Shown in pieces: positions 9,348 to 54,146 of a stretch of DNA of 64,000 nucleotides (its first letter is position 1; every line of letters begins with the position of its first letter). Origin of the DNA: Methylobacillus gramineus (GTDB lineage Bacteria; Pseudomonadota; Gammaproteobacteria; Burkholderiales; Methylophilaceae); the NCBI RefSeq assembly GCF_020532675.1, contig NZ_JAJAVE010000001.1:372001-436000 (forward strand), read 5' to 3'. A program made the translations under genes and the position numbers. The notes under the pieces were generated by a model. It did no database searches and was not told the DNA's origin. It worked only from the letters and a program-made list of their open reading frames with translations.

Positions 9348-10520
9348 TCAATTAGGCTGGTCGGTTGGTGATTCTTCTGGCTCATCTTCATGCAGCGATA
9401 GATGGTCAATGCGGGAGGATGAATCCTGGGCTGCGGCATTTTTGCCGTGTAGTTTGAAACGCAACCGTAGCTCATTGATGGAATCTGCGTTACGCAATGC
9501 ATCTTCCTCGGTGATACGGCCTTCTTCACACAGTGTAAAAAGTGCTTGGTCAAAGGTTTGCATCCCCAGCTCCACGGATTTCGCCATGGCTTCCTTCACC
9601 ATGCCGGTTTCTCCCTTGAGGATGAGGTCAGCAACCAGCGGAGAGTTAAGCAAGATTTCTATTGCAGCACAGCGACCTCCGCCTTTTTTCGGCACCAGTC
9701 GTTGCGAGACAAATGCCCGCAGATTGAGTGAGAGGTCCATATGTAGCTGGGCATGGCGTTCTTCAGGGAAGAAGTTGATGATACGGTCTATGGCCTGGTT
9801 TGAGCTGTTGGCATGCAGGGTGGCCATACACAGATGGCCGGTTTCGGCAAACGCCAGGGCGAACTCCATGGTCTCCCGATCACGGATTTCACCAATCAGG
9901 ATGACATCGGGGGCCTGGCGCAGGGTGTTCTTGAGTGCACTGAACCAATCCTTGGTATCTCGGCCTACTTCGCGATGCGTAATCAGGCAGTTCTTGCTGG
10001 GATGCACATACTCCACCGGATCTTCCACGGTGATGATGTGACCATAGCTGTTTTCATTGCGGTAATCAATCAGCGCTGCCAGCGTGGTTGATTTGCCGGA
10101 ACCGGTACCGCCTACCAGAATGACCAGTCCGCGCTTGGACATGATGACGTCCTTGAGGACAGGAGGCAGGGCCAGATCATCAAAACGCGGGATGTTGGTG
10201 GTGATGGTACGCAGCACCATACCGACCTTGTCCTGTTGAATAAAGACATTCACGCGGAAGCGGCCAATATCCCTCGGCCAGATGGCAAAGTTGCATTCCT
10301 TGTCCCGCTCAAACTCACCGCGCTGCTTGTCGTTCATCAAGGCGTCGGCAAACGCGCGTGTATGTTCACCACTGAGTTTCTGCTGGGTGACGGGCGTCAT
10401 TTTTCCATCAATTTTCATGGCAGGTGGAAAGTCGGCCGAGATAAATAAATCCGAGGCTTTTTTCTCCAGCATGGAGCGCAGCAGGGTGTGCATATAGGCC
10501 AAAGCCTGTTCCGGGTTCAT
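9348..10520 (-). CDS. pilU: Type IV pilus retraction ATPase PilU
   Basis: 390 residues. It has the PilT-family two-domain layout: an N-terminal PAS-like domain (SDLFISADFPPAMKIDGKM), Walker A GGTGSGKST at 137-145, the Asp box (ITVEDPVEYVH), Walker B and the His box (GHLCMATLHANSSNQAIDRI). The extended C-terminus and the opening MHTLLRSMLEKKASDLFIS identify the PilU paralogue rather than PilT. PilU is a cytoplasmic hexameric motor helper that acts with PilT in pilus retraction and twitching. pilT is not in the window. The following DUF3301-like gene is probably in the same transcript. Confidence 0.92.
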   Translation of the reverse strand: MNPEQALAYMHTLLRSMLEKKASDLFISADFPPAMKIDGKMTPVTQQKLSGEHTRAFADALMNDKQRGEFERDKECNFAIWPRDIGRFRVNVFIQQDKVGMVLRTITTNIPRFDDLALPPVLKDVIMSKRGLVILVGGTGSGKSTTLAALIDYRNENSYGHIITVEDPVEYVHPSKNCLITHREVGRDTKDWFSALKNTLRQAPDVILIGEIRDRETMEFALAFAETGHLCMATLHANSSNQAIDRIINFFPEERHAQLHMDLSLNLRAFVSQRLVPKKGGGRCAAIEILLNSPLVADLILKGETGMVKEAMAKSVELGMQTFDQALFTLCEEGRITEEDALRNADSINELRLRFKLHGKNAAAQDSSSRIDHLSLHEDEPEESPTDQPN

Positions 10521-10703
10521 GCAAGTCCGATCGGAAAAGTAAAAGAAGACTGATCAAGCAGGCATCATCTTAATCAGGATGCCAGGCATCTTCAACTGAC
10601 GATTGCACATGGCGGGAATTAGTCCATGATCGATTGTACGAAAATAGATGAATTCGGTTATAGTGGTATGCGTATTTGACCAGACTCGAGTTACCTAAAC
10701 GTA

Positions 10704-11375
10704 ATGAACGATACCCGTGAGCGTGAAGCACTTAGCGCTTATCTCAAGCTTTTGAGAAGCAAAGGCGCAAGTGAGGATGGTCTCAATCAGCGAGAGCAAT
10801 GGTTGTTGCAATTATTGCCCGTGATAGCAGGCCAGCCTGCAGATGGCCTGGTATACCGTGAAGCGGTGGAAAGCCTGATTGAGCAGGTGGATCGTGCTCA
10901 GTGGCCATTCTTTCTGGCTATCGTGCGTGAATATTTTCCCTTCTGGATCCAGGATATCAAGGCCATTGCTGCATTGAATGCAGAGCATGCGTTTGAGCTG
11001 GCACCCATGCAATGGCAACCGGTTGAGCATGACTTGAAAACACTCTGGCATATGCTGGACAAGGAAAAGTTCGGGGTGGCTGACACCTGGCCATTGAAAG
11101 CCTACACCCATGCTTTAAGGCAAGAAGGCGCTGAGCAGACATTGGTAGATACTCGTGTCAGGCTGGTCAAGCTACTATTGCTTAAACTGAAGGATGTACC
11201 GGAGCGAGATACCAAGGTATATCGGATTGCGGTGGATGCAACGGTGGCGCTGTTTTCCATGAAGCCCACACAGCGCCTGTTTCTTTCGGTGGTGCGGGAA
11301 TACTACTATTTCTGGATAGGCGACCCAGAAGCCATGAGCCATATACAGATCGAGCGTATAGAAAACATCGCCTGA
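10704..11375 (+). CDS. Unrecognised protein with an internal repeat
   Basis: 223 residues, soluble, helical and rich in Leu, Glu and Trp. Two halves share a motif: WPFFLAIVREYFPFWIQD at about 72-89 and RLFLSVVREYYYFWIGD at about 191-207. Each is preceded by a Leu-rich helix with basic residues, so the protein appears to be an ancient duplication of a unit of about 110 residues. I recognise no catalytic motif and no family name. There is no signal peptide. It stands alone between pilU (divergent) and the polyphosphate:AMP phosphotransferase gene (convergent). Confidence 0.75.
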   Translation: MNDTREREALSAYLKLLRSKGASEDGLNQREQWLLQLLPVIAGQPADGLVYREAVESLIEQVDRAQWPFFLAIVREYFPFWIQDIKAIAALNAEHAFELAPMQWQPVEHDLKTLWHMLDKEKFGVADTWPLKAYTHALRQEGAEQTLVDTRVRLVKLLLLKLKDVPERDTKVYRIAVDATVALFSMKPTQRLFLSVVREYYYFWIGDPEAMSHIQIERIENIA

Positions 11376-11446
11376 TGACTGGCTTCATGGCGTTGCCGCC
11401 GTTCCCATGCTAATGCTTGATCACTTCAATTCTTAAAGCGAAATTC

Positions 11447-12949
11447 CTAGAGTGAAGACAGTTTTTTCTCTAACTGTTTACAGATAGTTTTCAATATCTT
11501 GATCCGGGCGTATTTCTTGTCGTTCGATTCCACCAGTGTCCAGGGGGATAACTCAGTGCTGGTGCGATCTATCATGTCGCAGACCGCTGTCTGGTACTCA
11601 TCCCATTTTTCACGGTTGCGCCAGTCTTCAGGCGTAATCTTGTAGCGTTTGAAAGCCGTTTTCTCTCGTTCTTCAAAGCGTTTTAGCTGCTCTTCCTGGT
11701 CAATATGCAGCCAGAATTTCAGCAGGACAATATTGTGGCCTATCAACTGTTCTTCAAAATGATTGATCTCTGCATACGCCCGCATCCAGTCTTGCTCGCT
11801 GCAAAAGCCTTCCACCCGCTCCACCAATACCCGGCCATACCAGGTGCGATCAAAGATAGTGAGGCGCCCTCGGCGCGGTAATTGGCGCCAGAAACGCCAC
11901 AGATAAGGCTGTGCACGCTCCTCATCCGTGGGTGCGGCAATCGGGATGGTGCTGTAATGTCTGGCATCAAGCGCCTGGGTAATGCGCCGGATGGCCCCTC
12001 CTTTACCCGCTGCATCCACCCCTTCAAAAGCCGTAATCACGGCAATATCCTTGAATTTTTCATGCCTGGTCAGCAGGTTGAGCTTGCCTTGATACTCCTC
12101 TAGTTCACTCTCGTAATCTGACTTATCCAGAGACTTGGTCAAATCAAGTGCATTCAGCACATTGAGGCCATCCGCAGGTGGGAGCAGAGCAGGGGCGGTT
12201 GCCTTACGTGGGCGAGCAGTCTTGATGTCCAGGTTTTTCCTGATGGCGTCGAGAATATATTGACCAGTTGTCAGGCTGCGGTAATTGGCATCAAAGCCTT
12301 CTATGACCATCCATGGTGCGTTGGCTGTACTGGTTTCACGCAGGATATGCCCCGTTACAGTACGAAATTCGTTGTAATGCTTGAGATGCTCTTTATCTTG
12401 CTCAGTGACACGCCAGCTGGTCTTGGGGTTTTCTTCCAGCGCGGCAATCCGCGTTTTTTGCTGTTTTTTCGATAAGTGGAACCATAGCTTGATGATGAGG
12501 GTGCCCTCATCAGTCAACATGCGCTCAAAACGCACAATGTCATTGAGCGTGCTATCCAGTTTCTTGCGGATCTTGCCATCCATGTTGTCGAGAATAGGCG
12601 TCGTGTACCAGGAACCAAAAAAGATACCAATCTTGCCTTTGGGTGGGAGCTCTTTCCAGAAGCGCCACATGGTGGGCCGCTCCGCTTCATCCTGGGTGGC
12701 TGGGCCAAATGCACAGGTGTGAATCAATCTTGGATCCATCCATTCATTCAGCAAGTTGGCGGTTTCGCCTTTACCCGCGCCATCCACCCCACCAATCAGG
12801 ATCAGCACAGGCAAATTCTTGGCCTGGGCCAAATCGTATTGCACATCCAGCAGGGCCTGGCGCAATGCAGGAACTGCTTTTTTATAATCATCATCGGCAA
12901 CGGTGTGGCCAAGTTCTGCGGATTCAAACATACGCTGTCTACCGTTCAC
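11447..12949 (-). CDS. pap: Polyphosphate:AMP phosphotransferase (two-domain PPK2)
   Basis: 500 residues made of two fused PPK2 domains, the class II PAP architecture (about 500 residues). Domain 1 carries Walker A GGVDGAGKGE and the lid segment ERPTMWRFWKELPPKG. Domain 2 carries FEGVDAAGKGGAIRR, the lid ERAQPYLWRFWRQLPRRG and the Walker B segment FDRTWYGRVLVERVEG. The enzyme phosphorylates AMP to ADP with polyphosphate, helping to recover adenylates. The frame opens at 12949, but the family start MFESAELG is at Met7 (12931) and may be the true start. It is cytosolic. Confidence 0.9.
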   Translation of the reverse strand: MNGRQRMFESAELGHTVADDDYKKAVPALRQALLDVQYDLAQAKNLPVLILIGGVDGAGKGETANLLNEWMDPRLIHTCAFGPATQDEAERPTMWRFWKELPPKGKIGIFFGSWYTTPILDNMDGKIRKKLDSTLNDIVRFERMLTDEGTLIIKLWFHLSKKQQKTRIAALEENPKTSWRVTEQDKEHLKHYNEFRTVTGHILRETSTANAPWMVIEGFDANYRSLTTGQYILDAIRKNLDIKTARPRKATAPALLPPADGLNVLNALDLTKSLDKSDYESELEEYQGKLNLLTRHEKFKDIAVITAFEGVDAAGKGGAIRRITQALDARHYSTIPIAAPTDEERAQPYLWRFWRQLPRRGRLTIFDRTWYGRVLVERVEGFCSEQDWMRAYAEINHFEEQLIGHNIVLLKFWLHIDQEEQLKRFEEREKTAFKRYKITPEDWRNREKWDEYQTAVCDMIDRTSTELSPWTLVESNDKKYARIKILKTICKQLEKKLSSL

Positions 12950-41108: not shown

Positions 41109-42419
41109 GTGGCTGGGCTATTTGAACCGGTAGCGCCTCAAGCCCCTTTGGCAGAGAGGCTACGCCCCAAAGTCTTGCAGGATGTGGTGGGGCAATCTCA
41201 TTTGTTGGGTGAGGGTAAGCCGTTGCGCCTGGCATTTACATCCGGCAAGTTGCCGTCCATGATTCTATGGGGTCCTCCAGGGGTAGGCAAAACTACCCTG
41301 GCCCGGCTGATTGCCAATACCGCTGATGCCGAGTTCATCCCGCTCTCTGCCGTACTGGCGGGCATCAAGGACATCAGGGAAGCTGTGGAGCGGGCCGAAC
41401 ATATCTTGCAACAATCGGGACGGCGCACCATTCTGTTTGTGGATGAGGTACATCGGTTTAACAAAGGCCAGCAGGATGCTTTCCTGCCTTTTGTTGAAAG
41501 CGGCTTGATCACCTTTATTGGCGCCACCACAGAGAACCCGTCGTTTGAGGTGAATAGCGCCTTGTTGAGCCGGGCGCAGGTGTTTGTGCTGAATGCCTTG
41601 TCCGAAGCCGAACTCAAGCAGTTGCTGGACCGGGCGCAAGAAGAGATGGCACCTGCCATCACGCTTGCCCCGGAAGTGGTGGAGCAGGTGCTGGGGTATG
41701 CGGATGGCGATGCACGACGCTTGCTCAACTTTGCAGAGGGACTGTTTAATGCCGCGATGGCGGCTGAAATCAGCGTGATTGATGAGGCGTTTCTGCAATC
41801 GACCATGGCCAGCAAGTTGCGCCGGTTTGATAAGGGTGGGGAAGCGTTTTATGACCAGATTTCTGCCTTGCACAAGTCTGTGCGCGGGTCTAATCCTGAT
41901 GCGGCGCTTTATTGGTTGATGCGTATGCTCGATGGCGGCGCCGAGCCACTATACTTGGCGCGCCGTATCATCCGTATGGCATGGGAAGATATCGGTTTGG
42001 CCGACCCACGGGCGATGCAGATTGCCAATGATGCGGCACTCACTTTTGAGCGCCTGGGTAGTCCAGAGGGTGAGTTGGCGCTGGCGCAAGCTGTGATTTA
42101 TCTGGCCGTGGCAGCCAAGAGCAATGCGGGCTACATGGCCTACAATCAGGCGAAAGCGTTTGTTGCGCAAGATAAAAGTCGTGAAGTGCCAATTCACCTA
42201 CGCAATGCACCAACAAAATTAATGAAAAATTTGGGCTATGGGCATGAATATAGATATGCTCACAATGAGCCGAATGCTTATGCAGCGGGTGAAAATTATT
42301 TTCCTGATGGTATGCATGAACCCTCTTGGTACCAGCCAGTACCAAGAGGGTTAGAGTCAAAGATTACAGAAAAACTTAACATGCTTCGCAAATTGGATGA
42401 AGAAGCCAAGAAGAAATAG
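41109..42419 (+). CDS. rarA: Replication-associated recombination AAA+ ATPase RarA/MgsA, with a replaced 3' end
   Basis: 436 residues, full RarA length. Walker A is WGPPGVGKTTLA, Walker B FVDEVHRFNKGQQD, sensor 1 GATTENPSFEVNSALLSRAQ, and the MgsA C-terminal domain carries AIIR-like RRIIRMAWEDIGLADPRAM. It acts at stalled forks. The start is a GTG at 41109. From about base 42180 to the stop the DNA turns A+T-rich and its codons look like those of the defence island next door. A second, frameshifted copy of the rarA 3' end lies at 49090-49226. The 3' end of this gene therefore seems to have come in with the island. Confidence 0.94.
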   Translation: MAGLFEPVAPQAPLAERLRPKVLQDVVGQSHLLGEGKPLRLAFTSGKLPSMILWGPPGVGKTTLARLIANTADAEFIPLSAVLAGIKDIREAVERAEHILQQSGRRTILFVDEVHRFNKGQQDAFLPFVESGLITFIGATTENPSFEVNSALLSRAQVFVLNALSEAELKQLLDRAQEEMAPAITLAPEVVEQVLGYADGDARRLLNFAEGLFNAAMAAEISVIDEAFLQSTMASKLRRFDKGGEAFYDQISALHKSVRGSNPDAALYWLMRMLDGGAEPLYLARRIIRMAWEDIGLADPRAMQIANDAALTFERLGSPEGELALAQAVIYLAVAAKSNAGYMAYNQAKAFVAQDKSREVPIHLRNAPTKLMKNLGYGHEYRYAHNEPNAYAAGENYFPDGMHEPSWYQPVPRGLESKITEKLNMLRKLDEEAKKK

Positions 42420-42480
42420 AAACGTTAATTCAATTGAAATATTAACGGCACAAATGCCGATACATTAGAAAAAATTACTT

Positions 42481-44085
42481 ATGGCAACACTTCACTGGGG
42501 CGGAAAAAATAAGGTGGTCAATCACCACCATGATGTGCCATTCCGTTTGCTGGATAAGCAATACAGCTTTAAAGCGAATGAAGGCGCTCCTGCTAACTCC
42601 ACGAATAATCGAATCATTCATGGCGACAATCTAGAAGCATTGAAGAGCCTTCTTCCTGAGTTTGAAGGCAAGGTGAATTGCATCTACATTGACCCACCGT
42701 ACAACACTGGCAATGAAGGTTGGGTGTACAACGATAACGTGAATGACCCCAAAATCAAGAAGTGGCTTGGTCAGGTAGTAGGTAAAGAAGGTGAAGACTT
42801 AAGTAGGCACGATAAGTGGCTATGCATGATGTATCCGCGCCTCAAGTTGCTTCATCGTTTGTTAGCTGATGAAGGAGTGATACTTGTATCACTAGATGAT
42901 GTAGAGGCTGGAAATTTCCGTCTTTTGATGGATGAAGTTTTTGGTTATGGAAATAGGGTTGCCACAATTGTCTGGAATACCAGAAATACTGATAACAGAA
43001 TAAAGTCTTATTTGTCGCAAGATCATGAAAACATTTTTGTCTACGGTAAATCAGCCTCTACGAGAATTGAGGGGCGTGTAATTAATCGTTCTGATTTTAA
43101 AAATCCAGACAATGATCCACGCGGCCCCTATGTTACTGACCCCCTGAAAGGCAAGGCTACAGCTTCTGAAAGGCCGAATCTTCATAGCTATAACATGGAA
43201 CAACCAAACACAAACAATGTTTGGAGGCCTGATCCTGCAAAAGGTTGGATAACGGACTTTACCGGTTATGAAAAGTTACTTGAAGAAGATAGGATTTGGT
43301 GGCCACCTAATCCAGAAACCGGATGGCCGCGGAAGAAGAGGTTTTTGTCTGAGGTGCAAGAGCGCATGCCAGCTTCAACTTTCTGGTCTGAGTTCAAAAC
43401 GCAATCGGGGGCACGTGAGTTGGATGAGATTCTTGACGAGCGGGTCTTTGCTTTTCCAAAACCAATTTCATTAGTTCAAAGAATCATTAGCTATTGTGCC
43501 CCCCCGAATTCCATAGTTATGGATTCTTTCGCAGGTTCAGGGACTACAGCTCATGCCGTTCTTAAGCAGAATGCAGAAGATGGTGGCAATCGTCGTTTCA
43601 TCTTGTGTGAAATGATGGATTATGCCGAAACCATCACGGCTGAGAGGGTTCGCCGTGTCATCAATGGTTATGGTGAAGGAAGTAAGGGTGTAGCAGGCTT
43701 GGGTGGTGGTTTTGACTTCTACACCGTTGGAACTGCTCTCTTCAAAGAAGATAAGAACCTTAATGAAGAAGTTGGCGCAGAAGCTATTCGGGGTTACGTA
43801 GCCTACACTGAGAACATCCCCACTGAAAAGCGGTTGGATGCTGAAAACTCTATTAGTCCCTATGTCTTGGGTTTAACAAATACAGCCCTGTGTGTCTTTT
43901 ACTATGAAAAAGATCGGGTGACGACACTGGATATTGATTTTCTTGGGCAACTGAGAATCAAGAATCTGTCATCCAGACCTGAACAGTTTGTGATTTACGC
44001 TGATAAGTGTGCATTGGATAAGGATTTCCTTTATAAGCATGGAATTACCTTCAAGCGTATTCCACGTGACATCACCCGATTCTAA
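42481..44085 (+). CDS. Type III restriction-modification methyltransferase subunit Mod
   Basis: 534 residues, an adenine-N6 DNA methyltransferase of the beta class. Motif IV DPPYNTG (71-77) comes before motif I FAGSGTT (350-356), with the target-recognition region (about 165-320) between them. Mod alone methylates one strand of its asymmetric site, and with Res forms the restriction complex. The target sequence cannot be read from the protein. It is the first gene of the island, 61 bases after rarA, and res starts 11 bases after its stop. No simple-sequence repeat suggesting phase variation is seen. Confidence 0.93.
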   Translation: MATLHWGGKNKVVNHHHDVPFRLLDKQYSFKANEGAPANSTNNRIIHGDNLEALKSLLPEFEGKVNCIYIDPPYNTGNEGWVYNDNVNDPKIKKWLGQVVGKEGEDLSRHDKWLCMMYPRLKLLHRLLADEGVILVSLDDVEAGNFRLLMDEVFGYGNRVATIVWNTRNTDNRIKSYLSQDHENIFVYGKSASTRIEGRVINRSDFKNPDNDPRGPYVTDPLKGKATASERPNLHSYNMEQPNTNNVWRPDPAKGWITDFTGYEKLLEEDRIWWPPNPETGWPRKKRFLSEVQERMPASTFWSEFKTQSGARELDEILDERVFAFPKPISLVQRIISYCAPPNSIVMDSFAGSGTTAHAVLKQNAEDGGNRRFILCEMMDYAETITAERVRRVINGYGEGSKGVAGLGGGFDFYTVGTALFKEDKNLNEEVGAEAIRGYVAYTENIPTEKRLDAENSISPYVLGLTNTALCVFYYEKDRVTTLDIDFLGQLRIKNLSSRPEQFVIYADKCALDKDFLYKHGITFKRIPRDITRF

Positions 44086-44096
44086 GAAAAAGAAAA

Positions 44097-46814
44097 ATGG
44101 AACTCAAAGACTATCAGGCTGATGTACTAAGTGACCTCAGCGAATACTTGGGAACCCTGCTTGAGTGCAAGGGCCATCTTCCCAATGCTTTCACCAAGTA
44201 TTGGAAGGATCGTGGTGTTCTCAATCAAGCTTACAAGAACAACATCAAGGAAGTGCCTCATGTGTGTGTGAAGGTCCCCACTGCGGGTGGGAAGACCTTC
44301 ATTGCAGTGAATGCGTTGGACAGAATTTTTTCTGCCTTTGCTGAATACAATCCGACTCGTCCTAAGTTTGTGGTGTGGTTGGTTCCTTCTTTGACCATCC
44401 TTGAACAGACAGTTAAGAACCTATGCAACATTGATCATCCATACCGTCAGCGGTTGAATGACCTTTTCAATGGTCGTGTTCAAATCTATGAGAAGGCTGA
44501 TGTTCTTCAGGGTGCGGGGTTCAATGCGGACACCGTGAAGGAACAGCTTTCAGTAGTGGTGATGTCTTTTGACTCACTTAAGGCCACTAACAAAGAAAAC
44601 CGCAAAGCCTTTCAGGAGAATGGCTACCTTGCTTCATTCCTGAACGATGATAGCGAAATTGTTGAGCCGCTGGAAGGAACTGACCCTTCAGCACTTATTA
44701 ATATCATGCGGACTCTCAGGCCTGTTGTAGTTGTTGATGAAAGCCACAACGCTGAAAGTACTCTGTCTGTGGACATGCTTCGCGACCTCAATCCAAGCTT
44801 CATTTTTGACCTGACTGCTACCCCAAGGGATAACAGCAACATTATCAGCTATGTTGATGCCTTGAGGCTCAAGAAGCAGAACATGGTTAAGCTTCCTGTG
44901 ATTGTTGCGAATCAGAGAAGCCAAGAAGATGTGATCATGGCTGCGCTAAATATGCGGCGCCAGTTGGAAGAATTCGCCAAGAAGTCTGAAGAAAAAGGTG
45001 GTGGCTACATTCGGCCTATCGTGTTGTTCCAGGCTGAACCGAAGAACAAGGATGACACCACTACTTTTGAGAAGGTGCGGGAAATTCTGTTGGAACTGAA
45101 CATTCCAAAGGAACACATTGCCATCAAGACTGCCAATATCAACGAACTGAAGAACGTTGATTTGATGAGCCGTGATTGCCAAGTACGATACATCATTACG
45201 GTCAATGCGCTAAAAGAAGGATGGGATTGCCCTTTTGCTTATGTGCTGGCAACCCTGGCAAACAAATCCTCTGTGGTGGATGTGACTCAGATTCTGGGAC
45301 GTGTCCTTCGCATGCCATATACCAGAAAGCACAGCATTGAATTGCTGAACCTGAGCTATGTGTTTACCTCTTCCAGCCATTTCCAGAACACCTTGACCCA
45401 AGTAGTTGAGGGGTTGAATAAGGCGGGCTTCTCCAAGCGGGATTATCGAGAGTTTGACCTGTCTGGAATTGAGCAAGAGTGGGGTTCTACACCGTCACCA
45501 ACTCAAGAACAACTGAACCTGACTACTCTAACTGGTGAAGACAAGCCTGCTGAAACTGGTGACAGACAGGATATTGAGATTGAAAAGAGCAAGCTCAATC
45601 CTGACTGGGAGCAAAGCGCTGTAGAACAAGCTGCCACTGCGTATGGCAGTGAAAATCAGCAACCGGCTGCAACCGTAAATGACTCTACTGGTATTGAAGC
45701 GATCAAGGCTCAAGCTGTCGCACAAGCTCAACAATTTGAAGAGCAGGCAAGTGCTACGAATGGTGAGGCTTGCCCTGAAGAACTGAAGGCGCATATGAAT
45801 GAGCACAAGATGAAGCCAATCTTTGAAGAGTTGGCAAAAGCAATTCAGTTACCTCAGTTTTTCATTAAGCTGCCTTCAGATGGAGGGTTCTTTGATAGTG
45901 GTGACGAGTGGCATAAGCTCGCCAAGGAAAACCTGTTGTCCAACTTCGTTTTGGCAAACCTCGATGCCACTATCAACTTCACTGCCATTGAATCTGATGT
46001 GTATAAAGTAGATGCAGAAGAGATTGGTAATGGTGAAAGTGCTCCATCTTTCACCGTAGTGAAGAAGGCTGAGAAGGAAAAGCTGAACAGCATCATAAAG
46101 AGTCAGCCCACATCAGGCCAAATCACATCTATCATTGGTCGGTTGTTCAGTCTCATTGGAAAGAATACCTTTTACCCGATTGAAGATAACGATGTTAAGC
46201 ACTACCTCAAGCGGATTGTTGAGGCCTTGAATGCTGACCAACGTGCTGATTGTCTTGAACGTGACTATGCTTATGCGAAGCTCATCAAAGACAAGGTTCA
46301 GAGCCTTGCCAATGAGTATGCTGCAAAGGAATTTGGTAACTGGCTGACCACTCAAAAAATCAAGCTTCGTCCGTCCTTTTTACTGCCAGCAACGATTACA
46401 CCCAGTGACAACGCACCAGCGATCAGCCACAGTCTCTATGTCACTGAAGGCACTGTGAACAACCTTGAGAGCAAGGTTATCCGTGGTGTTGCAGAACTGG
46501 AAAATATTGTCTGGTGGCACAAGAATCTTGAACGAGGCAAAGGTTTCGTCATCAATGGATTTCTGAATCACTACCCTGATTTCATTGTTCTCACAGAGAG
46601 CAAGAACATTATTGTGGTGGAAACAAAGGGTGATGACAGAGATAACTCAGACTCAAAGAGCAAGCTGAAGCTTGGCAAAATTTGGGAGTCTCAGGCTAAC
46701 CAGATTGCACATGAAACAGGCTACCGCTATCACTACATGATGGTATTTGAGAGCAACCCGATTGATGGGGCATACACAACTGGTGATGTGCTGAAGCTGA
46801 TCGAGGCTTTATAA
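44097..46814 (+). CDS. Type III restriction endonuclease subunit Res
   Basis: 905 residues. An SF2 helicase core has Walker A VPTAGGKTF (60-68), DESH (214-217), SAT-like DLTATPRDN and motif VI QILGRVLRMPYTRK. The C-terminal nuclease is PD-(D/E)xK: PD at 827-828 and ETK at 842-844 (PDFIVLTESK ... VVETKGDD). Between them is a Gln/Glu-rich spacer (about 460-560). With Mod it uses ATP to find two head-to-head unmethylated sites and cuts nearby. All active-site motifs are intact. It is co-transcribed with mod and followed 66 bases later by the ATPase gene. Confidence 0.93.
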   Translation: MELKDYQADVLSDLSEYLGTLLECKGHLPNAFTKYWKDRGVLNQAYKNNIKEVPHVCVKVPTAGGKTFIAVNALDRIFSAFAEYNPTRPKFVVWLVPSLTILEQTVKNLCNIDHPYRQRLNDLFNGRVQIYEKADVLQGAGFNADTVKEQLSVVVMSFDSLKATNKENRKAFQENGYLASFLNDDSEIVEPLEGTDPSALINIMRTLRPVVVVDESHNAESTLSVDMLRDLNPSFIFDLTATPRDNSNIISYVDALRLKKQNMVKLPVIVANQRSQEDVIMAALNMRRQLEEFAKKSEEKGGGYIRPIVLFQAEPKNKDDTTTFEKVREILLELNIPKEHIAIKTANINELKNVDLMSRDCQVRYIITVNALKEGWDCPFAYVLATLANKSSVVDVTQILGRVLRMPYTRKHSIELLNLSYVFTSSSHFQNTLTQVVEGLNKAGFSKRDYREFDLSGIEQEWGSTPSPTQEQLNLTTLTGEDKPAETGDRQDIEIEKSKLNPDWEQSAVEQAATAYGSENQQPAATVNDSTGIEAIKAQAVAQAQQFEEQASATNGEACPEELKAHMNEHKMKPIFEELAKAIQLPQFFIKLPSDGGFFDSGDEWHKLAKENLLSNFVLANLDATINFTAIESDVYKVDAEEIGNGESAPSFTVVKKAEKEKLNSIIKSQPTSGQITSIIGRLFSLIGKNTFYPIEDNDVKHYLKRIVEALNADQRADCLERDYAYAKLIKDKVQSLANEYAAKEFGNWLTTQKIKLRPSFLLPATITPSDNAPAISHSLYVTEGTVNNLESKVIRGVAELENIVWWHKNLERGKGFVINGFLNHYPDFIVLTESKNIIVVETKGDDRDNSDSKSKLKLGKIWESQANQIAHETGYRYHYMMVFESNPIDGAYTTGDVLKLIEAL

Positions 46815-46880
46815 CCGTAATGAGCAAGAGTTGAAAAGCACCTGCCGGTGTTTTTTTACAATCTTAAAAAGGGGATAACG

Positions 46881-49037
46881 ATGAAGCTGACTGTAGACCT
46901 TAAGAACTGCTATGGGATCAGTGAGTTAGTGCATGAGTTTGATTTTAATGTTACTAATAGCTATGCCATCTATGCGCCAAACGGCTTCATGAAAACTTCA
47001 TTTTCCAAGACATTTGATGATCTAGCTAAGAGAAGAGAAACGAAGGATTTGATTTTTCCAGACAGAGAACCAAGTAGGTTTATTAAAAATGATACGGGCA
47101 ATGATATCGCTCCTGATTCTGTATTTGTTGTTGAGCCATACAATGCAGATTTCTCATCTGATAAAACATCACTCCTTCTTGTAAATAATGATGTCAAGAA
47201 AAAGTATGATGAGGCTCTCAATGATATTGCAGATAAGCAATCAGCATTATTGGGGAAGCTTAAGCAGTTATCAGGTTTAACAGGTAGAACAGTTACTCCT
47301 GAAACCGAGATTCTGAAATGCTTTGGTAAGAGGACACTTGCTGAACTGATGGAATCGTTGGACGAGAAGATAAAGGATAGTACTCTTACACAGCTTTCTA
47401 CAGTGGTCTATGCAGAAGTTTTTAATGAAAAGACTCTCGGACTTTTAGATTCTGGCGAAATTACAGACCAGTTAGAAGAATACATCCAGAAATACAATGA
47501 ACTGGTTTCTAAGTCTGATGTTCTCAGTAAACAGTTCAATCACTATAGTGCCACGACTGTCAATAAACAGCTTAAGGACAACGGATTTTTTGAAGCTAAG
47601 CATACAGTTAATCTCCGAACCAAAGATGGGATGAAGGAGATTACTACTGCTGATGAGCTTGCTGGAAAAATTGAAGAGGAAAGAAATAAGATTCTGACTG
47701 ACAAAGAGCTTGCTTCAAAGTTTGATGCGATAGACAAGAAGATTCAAAACGCTGAATTGAGGAAATTCAGGGATTATCTCTTTGATAATCAGCATATTCT
47801 TCCGTATCTAAAGGACTATAAGCAGCTTCAAAAAGAATTGTGGATTTCATACTTGGTTGATCAGAAGGAGTTCTACGGCCAATTTCTAGAAGCCTATAGG
47901 GCAAGCAAAGTTACTATCGAAGAGGCTGTCCAGCAAGCTAACAATGAAAGAACAGAATGGGAAGGAGTCGTTGAAGCATTCAACAAGCGATTCTCTGTGC
48001 CATTTAAAATGAGCGTATCAAACCAAGATGACGTGATTCTTAAAGGTACTCAACCCACAATTTCTTTTAAGTTTTCTGATGTTGATGGCGAAGGTGATGT
48101 TGCTAGAGAGTCGTTGCTGAAGGTTCTGAGTCAAGGTGAGCGTAGAGCACTTTATATATTAAATATCTTGTTTGAGATTCAGACAAGAATTAAGCAAGGA
48201 GCCATCACAATATTGGTGATTGATGACATTGCAGATTCGTTTGATTATAAAAACAAGTACGCGATAATTGAGTATCTAAAGGATATTTCAGCGTCAGGTA
48301 AATTCTTTTGTCTATTCCTATCCCATAATTTCGACTTCTACAGAAGTATTAGCGGAAGACTTGGTTTAAAACGGGAGTGTAAGCTACATGCAACGAAGTC
48401 AGGTAGAAAGCTAAAGCTAACTAAAGAAAAGTACCAAAAGAATCCATTTAATCATTGGAAAGAAAACCTTACAACTCCTGCTTTCTGTATTTCAGCCATA
48501 CCATTTGTCAGGAACCTAGCAGAATACTGCGGCTTGAATGCCGAATTTATTAAACTAACCTCTTTGCTTCATATTAAAGCTGAAACTGATACGCTAACAC
48601 TTGATAATCTATGTGTGATTTACAGGAAAATCCTGGCAGATAAACAACAGTTGACATTGAACCCGCCAGGAAAGCCTGTGATTGATGTTATTAACGAAGA
48701 AGCAGAGTCTGTTTTTAATGCACAAGAAGAAAGTGTAGAGCTTGAAGGGAAAGTTGTTCTCTCAATAGTAATCAGGCTAATAGCTGAAAAGCACATGATT
48801 AAAGTTATCAATAATCCAACCTTTGTTAATTCAATTAATGAAAACCAAACAATCAAGCTGCTTCAAGAGTACAAGAGATTAGGTTTGGGTGATGCGCAGG
48901 ATGTTTTGACTCTGGAACAGGTTAACCTAATGACGCCAGAGAACATCCATCTAAATTCGTTCATGTATGAGCCAATCTTAGATTTGGGAATAGCACATCT
49001 AAAGAATCTGTATTCAGATGTAAAACAACTTTATTGA
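46881..49037 (+). CDS. SMC/PrrC-like ABC-type ATPase linked to the type III R-M genes
   Basis: 718 residues from the ATG at 46881, behind AAAAGGGG. The ATPase head is split: a Walker A-like APNGFMKTS (32-40), a long helical middle (about 100-370, coiled-coil-like), then the signature LSQGERRA (416-423), Walker B ILVIDDI (444-450) and an H-loop His at 482 (LSHNFDFYR). This is the AAA_13/PrrC/RloC layout. After the head, Arg544-x3-Glu548 and His564 could match the catalytic trio of PrrC-type anticodon nucleases. A C-terminal NSFMYEPILDLG follows. Family membership is fairly clear; nuclease activity is inference. It may also be an independent defence gene. Confidence 0.75.
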   Translation: MKLTVDLKNCYGISELVHEFDFNVTNSYAIYAPNGFMKTSFSKTFDDLAKRRETKDLIFPDREPSRFIKNDTGNDIAPDSVFVVEPYNADFSSDKTSLLLVNNDVKKKYDEALNDIADKQSALLGKLKQLSGLTGRTVTPETEILKCFGKRTLAELMESLDEKIKDSTLTQLSTVVYAEVFNEKTLGLLDSGEITDQLEEYIQKYNELVSKSDVLSKQFNHYSATTVNKQLKDNGFFEAKHTVNLRTKDGMKEITTADELAGKIEEERNKILTDKELASKFDAIDKKIQNAELRKFRDYLFDNQHILPYLKDYKQLQKELWISYLVDQKEFYGQFLEAYRASKVTIEEAVQQANNERTEWEGVVEAFNKRFSVPFKMSVSNQDDVILKGTQPTISFKFSDVDGEGDVARESLLKVLSQGERRALYILNILFEIQTRIKQGAITILVIDDIADSFDYKNKYAIIEYLKDISASGKFFCLFLSHNFDFYRSISGRLGLKRECKLHATKSGRKLKLTKEKYQKNPFNHWKENLTTPAFCISAIPFVRNLAEYCGLNAEFIKLTSLLHIKAETDTLTLDNLCVIYRKILADKQQLTLNPPGKPVIDVINEEAESVFNAQEESVELEGKVVLSIVIRLIAEKHMIKVINNPTFVNSINENQTIKLLQEYKRLGLGDAQDVLTLEQVNLMTPENIHLNSFMYEPILDLGIAHLKNLYSDVKQLY

Positions 49038-49089
49038 TAGAATCACCTTTGGGCTCCATTGTTGCCGGAATTTTGCTACTACGACTGAG

Positions 49090-49226
49090 GATTGTTTTTC
49101 CGACGATTTGGCACCCATGGCATTTTATATGCCCCCCTCACGCGGGCTCGAAGGTAAAGTTAGTGAAAAATGGCGCATTTGCGTGAGCTTGATGAGCAAG
49201 CCCTGGCAAGAAACCGCAAAAAATAA
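49090..49226 (+). pseudogene. Displaced original 3' end of rarA, frameshifted
   Basis: The frame reads DCFSDDLAPMAFYMPPSRGL then EGKVSEK, and after one missing base at 49170/49171 it continues AHLRELDEQALARNRKK and stops at 49226. This aligns with the end of RarA at 42310-42419 (YFPDGMHEPSWYQPVPRGLE, SKITEKLNMLRKLDEEAKKK). The serS gene follows 84 bases later. I take it as what remains of the ancestral rarA tail after the island arrived. It has no start of its own. Confidence 0.75.
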
Positions 49227-49289
49227 AACAGATGGTCATGCCAATTACCATCGTGCTTTCATGCACCTTGGACTGGTGGCATACCTTAG

Positions 49290-50603
<1,314 letters not shown>

Positions 50604-54055: not shown

Positions 54056-54146
54056 GGAGAGGTGGCAGAGCTGGTTGAATGTACCTGACTCGAAATCAGG
54101 CATACGTGAAAGCGTATCAAGGGTTCGAATCCCTTCCTCTCCGCCA
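54056..54146 (+). tRNA. tRNA-Ser (anticodon CGA)
   Basis: 91 bases including an encoded CCA. The acceptor stem GGAGAGG (54056-54062) pairs with CCTCTCC (54136-54142). The anticodon loop CTCGAAA carries CGA at 54091-54093, reading UCG. A long variable arm (CATACGTGAAAGCGTAT) and the T-loop GGTTCGAATC confirm a type II serine tRNA. It has its own promoter and no sign of an integrated element at its 3' end. Confidence 0.96.

Follow-up and report, generated by a model that had tools for sequence, protein, structure and literature searches.

A type III restriction-modification and PDC-S46 ATPase island between a mosaic rarA and a displaced native rarA end in Methylobacillus gramineus

We analyzed a stretch of 64,000 nucleotides of the Methylobacillus gramineus genome (contig NZ_JAJAVE010000001.1, positions 372,001 to 436,000; in the following, the window), in which rarA and serS are separated by an island of putative defence genes. 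The parts of this locus listed below are all located on the plus strand and positions are those of the window. The whole rarA gene covers 41109–42419. It is followed by three long open reading frames (ORFs), which separate two rarA tails from each other: Mod, a type III DNA methyltransferase (42481–44085; PADLOC MTase_III, 8.1e-182; Pfam N6_N4_Mtase, 1.2e-36; DPPY in the translation), Res, the type III restriction subunit (44097–46814; PADLOC REase_III, 7.1e-72; Pfam ResIII, 3.3e-13), and a RloC/PrrC-like PDC-S46 ATPase, a putative RNase effector (46881–49037, with 46881 as the likely true start; PADLOC PDC-S46, 3.6e-272, 903 bits). Downstream lies the second rarA tail (49087–49226), and the native right flank begins with serS (49311–50603; 93% amino acid identity to the nearest congener, G002; Pfam tRNA-synt_2b and Seryl_tRNA_N). 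A scan of 49000–49400 for consensus promoters and terminators gave no match.

The rarA gene is a mosaic of three parts: about 790 native bases, 265 bases belonging to a different allele type and, at the end, foreign A+T-rich sequence. The native part (41109–41899) found its best matches in congeners (83% nucleotide identity to locus L007, 80% to L008). The middle part (41900–42164; G+C content 0.57) is nearest to genus g19, with 81–85% nucleotide identity to 13 of 13 g19 loci; the congener G005 comes next with 78%. Informative sites of own-genus and g19-like type are distributed 40:10 in the left part and 2:28 in the middle part (Fisher p = 5e-11, which is optimistic because the breakpoint was picked after inspection of the data), and the protein encoded by the middle part is identical to g19 locus L032 as far as residue E at 42183. 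The imported end completing RarA (42165–42419) is, among the loci compared, nearest to rarA of G252 (L202/L238; 182 bits, the next reaching 130 bits), with 76.6% identity over 252 bp and 82% on the amino acid level. G252 belongs to family f14 of the same order and has a G+C content of about 0.43 in the pieces read. The reading frame passes from native to foreign sequence without interruption, and both switches could be located. The g19-like middle part suggests at least two successive exchanges in rarA.

G+C content decreases from 0.56–0.57 over 41109–42164 to 0.40 over 42165–42419, and G+C content at third codon positions (GC3) from 0.62–0.63 to 0.32 in the imported end, similar to 0.36 in the ATPase gene. 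A preliminary description of this DNA had placed the onset of island-like composition at about 42180 and proposed to examine G+C content and codon bias. The drop is real and visible in both measures, but it starts near 42140 and the foreign part extends back to 41900.

The same description had recognized a second rarA C-terminal sequence at 49090–49226 with one base lost. Alignment to the native 3’ end of rarA in the nearest congener (G002, L007) confirmed it and set its limits at 49087–49226; of the 141 columns 117 are identical, 23 are substitutions and one marks a lost base. This remnant carries the AHLRELDEQALARNRKK end followed by the stop codon, and the rarA tails of three other congeners show 76–79% identity to it over 90–107 bp. 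Relatives have rarA and serS as direct neighbors with tails like this one, as had been predicted. The mosaic gene and the native remnant support the proposal that a donor rarA end recombined in, keeping RarA whole and displacing the native tail next to serS. The two rarA ends of the window are not copies of each other: blastn between them returned chance-level matches alone, and they are related as proteins (34% identity over 53 columns, E = 8e-5). With the left switch at 42165 and a remnant that begins at the equivalent of rarA position 42291, the locus lacks 126 bp of native rarA, or 391 bp when the count starts at 41900. The native sequence between the two joins was therefore lost and not duplicated, as homology-facilitated illegitimate recombination (HFIR) predicts; both the homologous join at one end and the loss of recipient DNA between the joins are seen here.

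Other routes to two rarA ends have to be weighed against these features. The locus had been likened to an integrative element that restores its target. An element that inserted at an attachment site near the end of rarA, and whose integrase was later lost, would place a restored gene end on one side and a displaced end on the other. The missing native sequence fits one-sided homologous plus illegitimate recombination better: site-specific insertion keeps the two sides contiguous around a shared core, whereas here 126 bp are absent, the two tails share no identical block or core (att) repeat, and the rarA type changes from 41900 on. Neither an integrase nor a tRNA had been reported in the preliminary description, and indeed none of the three genes that separate the tails encodes an integrase; the sole tRNA found within the window is located at 54056. 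We regard such an element as very unlikely. A Campbell-type single crossover of a circular molecule with a 3’ fragment of rarA and the island, followed by a deletion in the right copy, was considered as well, as duplication products from circles were the common outcome of an E. coli conjugation test (PMC3240628). It predicts a right copy that starts upstream of the crossover. The actual right copy does not start until 126 bp past the left switch, which makes the extra deletion necessary, and we give this route only a slight chance.

In order to characterize the empty site we compiled a family sample of 150 genomes, one per species. We typed 141 of the 142 genomes with rarA (G027, without a serS match, was left out) and 135 of the 143 with serS, genomes with only internal or C-terminal serS fragments being excluded; 134 genomes carry both genes on one contig and strand. 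The gap between rarA and serS is at most 200 bp in 122 of these, 201–500 bp in 10 and above 500 bp in two, namely the genome of the window (6.9 kb) and G025 (2.6 kb). In G025 the insert (L178:3251–5579) follows an intact rarA end and is not accompanied by a tail remnant; its ORFs were read as toxin-antitoxin-like genes, including a Phd/VapC-like pair. In E. coli a query spanning the rarA-serS junction was kept in one place in 5374 of 5426 genomes (at least 80% of the query in one place, which may bridge about 1.15 kb). The space behind rarA had been suggested to be a defence hotspot in this lineage. Repeated occupation by varied defence cargo was not observed among the 134 family genomes, 132 of which have a gap of at most 500 bp, and the rarA-serS slot is not a defence hotspot in these samples.

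These comparisons also bear on the possibility that the whole block was made in an unsampled strain of the same genus and arrived by double homologous recombination, with one crossover in rarA and one in serS. The type of the remnant is that of the genus, and rarA has seemingly been exchanged repeatedly, as judged from the g19-like middle part and from G005 (L011/L184), a genome of the same genus in which rarA shows 74% and serS 88% amino acid identity to the window. The island is absent from all five sampled congeners, and this explanation merely shifts the original event to another strain; we consider it rather unlikely. The rarA of G005 ends in the EPGWYQP type known from other families, which suggests that it was replaced without cargo.

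HFIR is favored over site-specific insertion and target duplication because 126 bp are missing, the tails are dissimilar and no integrase is present. We propose that the cell took up a linear DNA fragment of another lineage, on which the 3’ part of the donor’s rarA was followed by the genes for Mod, Res and the PDC-S46 ATPase. The donor rarA part would have recombined homologously with the resident gene as an anchor, while the other end of the fragment would have become linked by illegitimate recombination to a site within the resident rarA tail, ahead of serS. RarA would have stayed whole owing to the imported end, at the cost of 126 bp of native rarA, and the last 47 native codons (stop included) would have been stranded and have begun to decay. 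We assign a probability of roughly 65% to this origin of the mosaic rarA, the island and the stranded tail from homologous and illegitimate recombination with a linear donor. HFIR, together with one or more additional exchanges in rarA, is the most economical mechanism.

Several observations weigh against this proposal. In PMC3240628, HFIR is described as less frequent than homologous recombination by a factor of 100 to 10^6, with insertions and deletions of 1 kb on average and mostly 3–10 bp of microhomology. Here about 6.9 kb were gained and 126 bp (391 bp from 41900) lost, as compared to about 1 kb each, and no donor with this gene order, in which microhomology at the right joint might be seen, was found. 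A ComEC homologue is present in the genome of the window, which is no proof of competence since the control search finds ComEC in E. coli, too. The g19-like middle part is also found in the congener G005, and that allele may therefore have spread within the genus. In G252, the genome nearest to the imported end, rarA and PDC-S46 are located on different contigs. Finally, the remnant shows 8 synonymous and 10 non-synonymous codon changes. Between native tails we counted 10–15 synonymous and 4–10 non-synonymous changes in four pairs, and because the remnant comes near to these values the case for its decay rests mainly on the frameshift.

Regarding the cargo, Mod adjoins Res, which contains a helicase domain, and both PADLOC and Pfam assign them to a type III restriction-modification (R-M) system. 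A Res relative with 77% amino acid identity is located beside a Mod relative in G170, with no PDC-S46 match in the 16 kb read. For the PDC-S46 ATPase we compared 40 homologues, of which 39 matched SMC_N and 9 matched AAA_13, the family that includes PrrC; the protein of the window itself did not match AAA_13 at E ≤ 0.1. Invariant in 40 of 40 are P, N, G, K and S of the Walker A region, S, G and E of the signature, DD and H, as well as R632, E636 and H690, forming the pattern R-x3-E-x53-H. An AlphaFold2 model (mean predicted local distance difference test score 85, predicted template modelling score (pTM) 0.64) matched the heads of condensin, SMC and Rad50 proteins in Foldseek with low TM-scores. 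Together with the conserved residues this identifies an ABC/SMC-type ATPase head, as in RloC and PrrC. A literature search on PDC-S46 found no paper. The triad R632/E636/H690 is our own assignment, resembling the RloC motif Arg-x3-Glu-x36-52-His (PMC2610378) and lying one residue past the published spacing. RloC and PrrC share with PDC-S46 the ABC/Rad50-like ATPase; they have a C-terminal Arg-x3-Glu...His triad, of which R632/E636/H690 may be the counterpart, and in some cases are associated with R-M systems of type I or III (PMC2610378). PDC-S46 differs in its Glu-His spacing of 53 instead of 36–52 and in the missing AAA_13 match, and its anticodon-nuclease activity is putative. The cargo is probably a type III restriction system combined with a RloC/PrrC-like ATPase that may cleave RNA if restriction fails, in which case the ATPase would serve as a second line behind the R-M enzyme.

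The donor was searched for in an order sample of 300 genomes, a class sample of 369 genomes and the loci of the best 80 of 371 PDC-S46 relatives. PDC-S46 was found at E ≤ 1e-30 in six and Res at E ≤ 1e-100 in five of the 300 order genomes, the genome of the window being counted in both. The order rarA-Mod-Res-PDC-S46 was not found in any other genome of the order sample or among the best 80 loci; one of the latter has Mod and Res beside PDC-S46 (L128) and another is located at rarA-serS (L096, Parvibium lacunae). The DNA of the rarA tail was matched at E ≤ 1e-15 in 22 of the 369 class genomes, again including that of the window, and the best other match was 75% over 194 bp. The PDC-S46 protein shows 83% amino acid identity to its homologues both in G252 and in Parvibium. 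G252 furthermore contains a fragment of the Res end (89% nucleotide identity over 113 bp), with one gene between fragment and PDC-S46. The imported rarA tail, PDC-S46 and the Res end point to a donor near the lineage of G252. In the G252 locus (L176, 9801–13851) the gene preceding PDC-S46 was read as DUF262/HNH-like, and the stranded Res end of 41 residues, 88% identical to Res of the window, gives the impression that a type III system was displaced.

Parvibium lacunae, placed by NCBI in the Alcaligenaceae (Burkholderiales), has the best-scoring of the 80 PDC-S46 loci and shows a similar layout: rarA (L096:8669–9982) is followed by PDC-S46 (10010–12166) and serS (from about 12306). Its rarA reaches 72% identity with that of other families in the order, as compared to 66% with G001, a congener of the window; being nearer to other families, Parvibium is likely to stand outside the family of the window. 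Directly before serS, behind PDC-S46, we found AKMAEKLAWLRSLDDEARSQ and a stop codon, the end of a rarA tail (tblastn E = 1.6e-6). Its tail-repeat score was reached by 5 of 2256 mismatched pairs. The case for a rarA-tail remnant in Parvibium is good but not overwhelming, with position, orientation and stop codon in support, and either of the two rarA ends may be the native one. The use of the same slot would also suit an integrative element in the rarA 3’ end. A putative large serine recombinase at L096:13742–15352, at a distance of about 1.6 kb from the PDC-S46 end, however overlaps with a tRNA-Met located just past serS, which counts against such an element.

We then asked how often upstream gene ends are repeated behind PDC-S46, using the 2256 mismatched pairs as null distribution; 48 of 84 PDC-S46 loci were testable. 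A repeat was present in two of the 48, L096 and L128. In L128, a Bacteroidetes metagenome-assembled genome in which Mod, Res and PDC-S46 follow one another, PDC-S46 is succeeded by a repeat of the final ~50 bp of Res that differs at about two positions (L128:4545–6880) and scores above all mismatched pairs. The other 46 showed no repeated gene end (best score 38, reached by 43 of 2256). A scan of the 80 loci without composition correction was swamped by noise, and L170 and L100, flagged in the filtered scan, looked like truncated or paralogous genes. The near-identical repeat in L128 recalls the insertion of R-M genes with a long target duplication, as for Helicobacter, and in the window, too, R-M cargo is flanked by two rarA ends. 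Since neither of these ends is a copy of the other, there was no target duplication, and this origin is extremely improbable for the island described here.

Other rarA-serS intervals were searched for rarA tails as well. With 56 tail queries (tblastn), among 17 intervals picked by eye (14 class genomes with a gap above ~1 kb, two family genomes with ~0.4 kb and G025; G525, with an interval of ~25 kb, was outside this set) the best plus-strand match had E = 0.010 and the best wrong-strand match 7.8e-4, compared to 8e-15 in the window and 1.6e-6 in Parvibium. From 75 further loci carrying both genes, some of which are two loci of one genome, we tested the 51 with an interval of at least 30 bp and obtained weak matches (E 0.003–0.009) in L202/L238, L204, L011/L059/L184 and L067. 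The one strong match, in L072 of G132 (5e-34), was attributed to a broken rarA frame that leaves the gene’s own tail in the interval: the rarA match ends at residue 330, and the tail follows at some distance outside the open frame. Seven genomes of the same order without serS in the first locus contained their own rarA tail alone; repeated mid-gene matches in these were due to the broken L072 query.

The arrival of defence genes in chromosomes is usually explained by integrases, transposons or plasmids. The locus investigated here preserves both ends of the event with no sign of any of these, and it illustrates how the neighborhood of an essential gene, serS, can take up cargo unharmed if the gene end is provided by the donor. 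The locus of Parvibium suggests that this route was taken more than once. One might go further and speculate that PDC-S46 cassettes carry a host-gene 3’ end as landing anchor, that linkage to rarA is kept across lineages without integrase or transposase, and that each transfer re-creates the arrangement of gene with foreign end, cassette and stranded native end; we find this generalization doubtful at present. A literature search combining rarA, serS and genomic island found no paper. HFIR-type displacement of 3’ ends has been proposed at toxin and effector loci, among them displaced effector modules of the type VI secretion system (T6SS; PMC5361080); new is defence cargo at a housekeeping gene.

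Compared with HFIR as characterized in PMC3240628, the locus shares the homologous join on one side, the gain of foreign DNA, the loss of native DNA and probably the illegitimate join on the other side. It differs in its larger insert and far smaller deletion, and its history is reconstructed from a genome while those events were observed in the laboratory. Target duplication by Helicobacter-type R-M genes (Nobusato 2000, as cited in PMC3031569) likewise leaves R-M genes between two versions of the target, whereas here the rarA ends are of different origin and nothing was duplicated. Core defence hotspots of Pseudomonas aeruginosa also hold defence genes between core genes. Those hotspots are occupied in most isolates (PMC10250203); the rarA-serS slot is occupied in two of 134 genomes, in one of them by other cargo. 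In the displacement of T6SS effectors in Vibrio cholerae and of Rhs C-termini (PMC5361080), too, a shared upstream region serves as anchor and the old sequence is kept downstream as an orphan. Those cases concern toxin and effector loci with variable ends, whereas in M. gramineus a housekeeping anchor is restored and the cargo is probably directed at phage defence.

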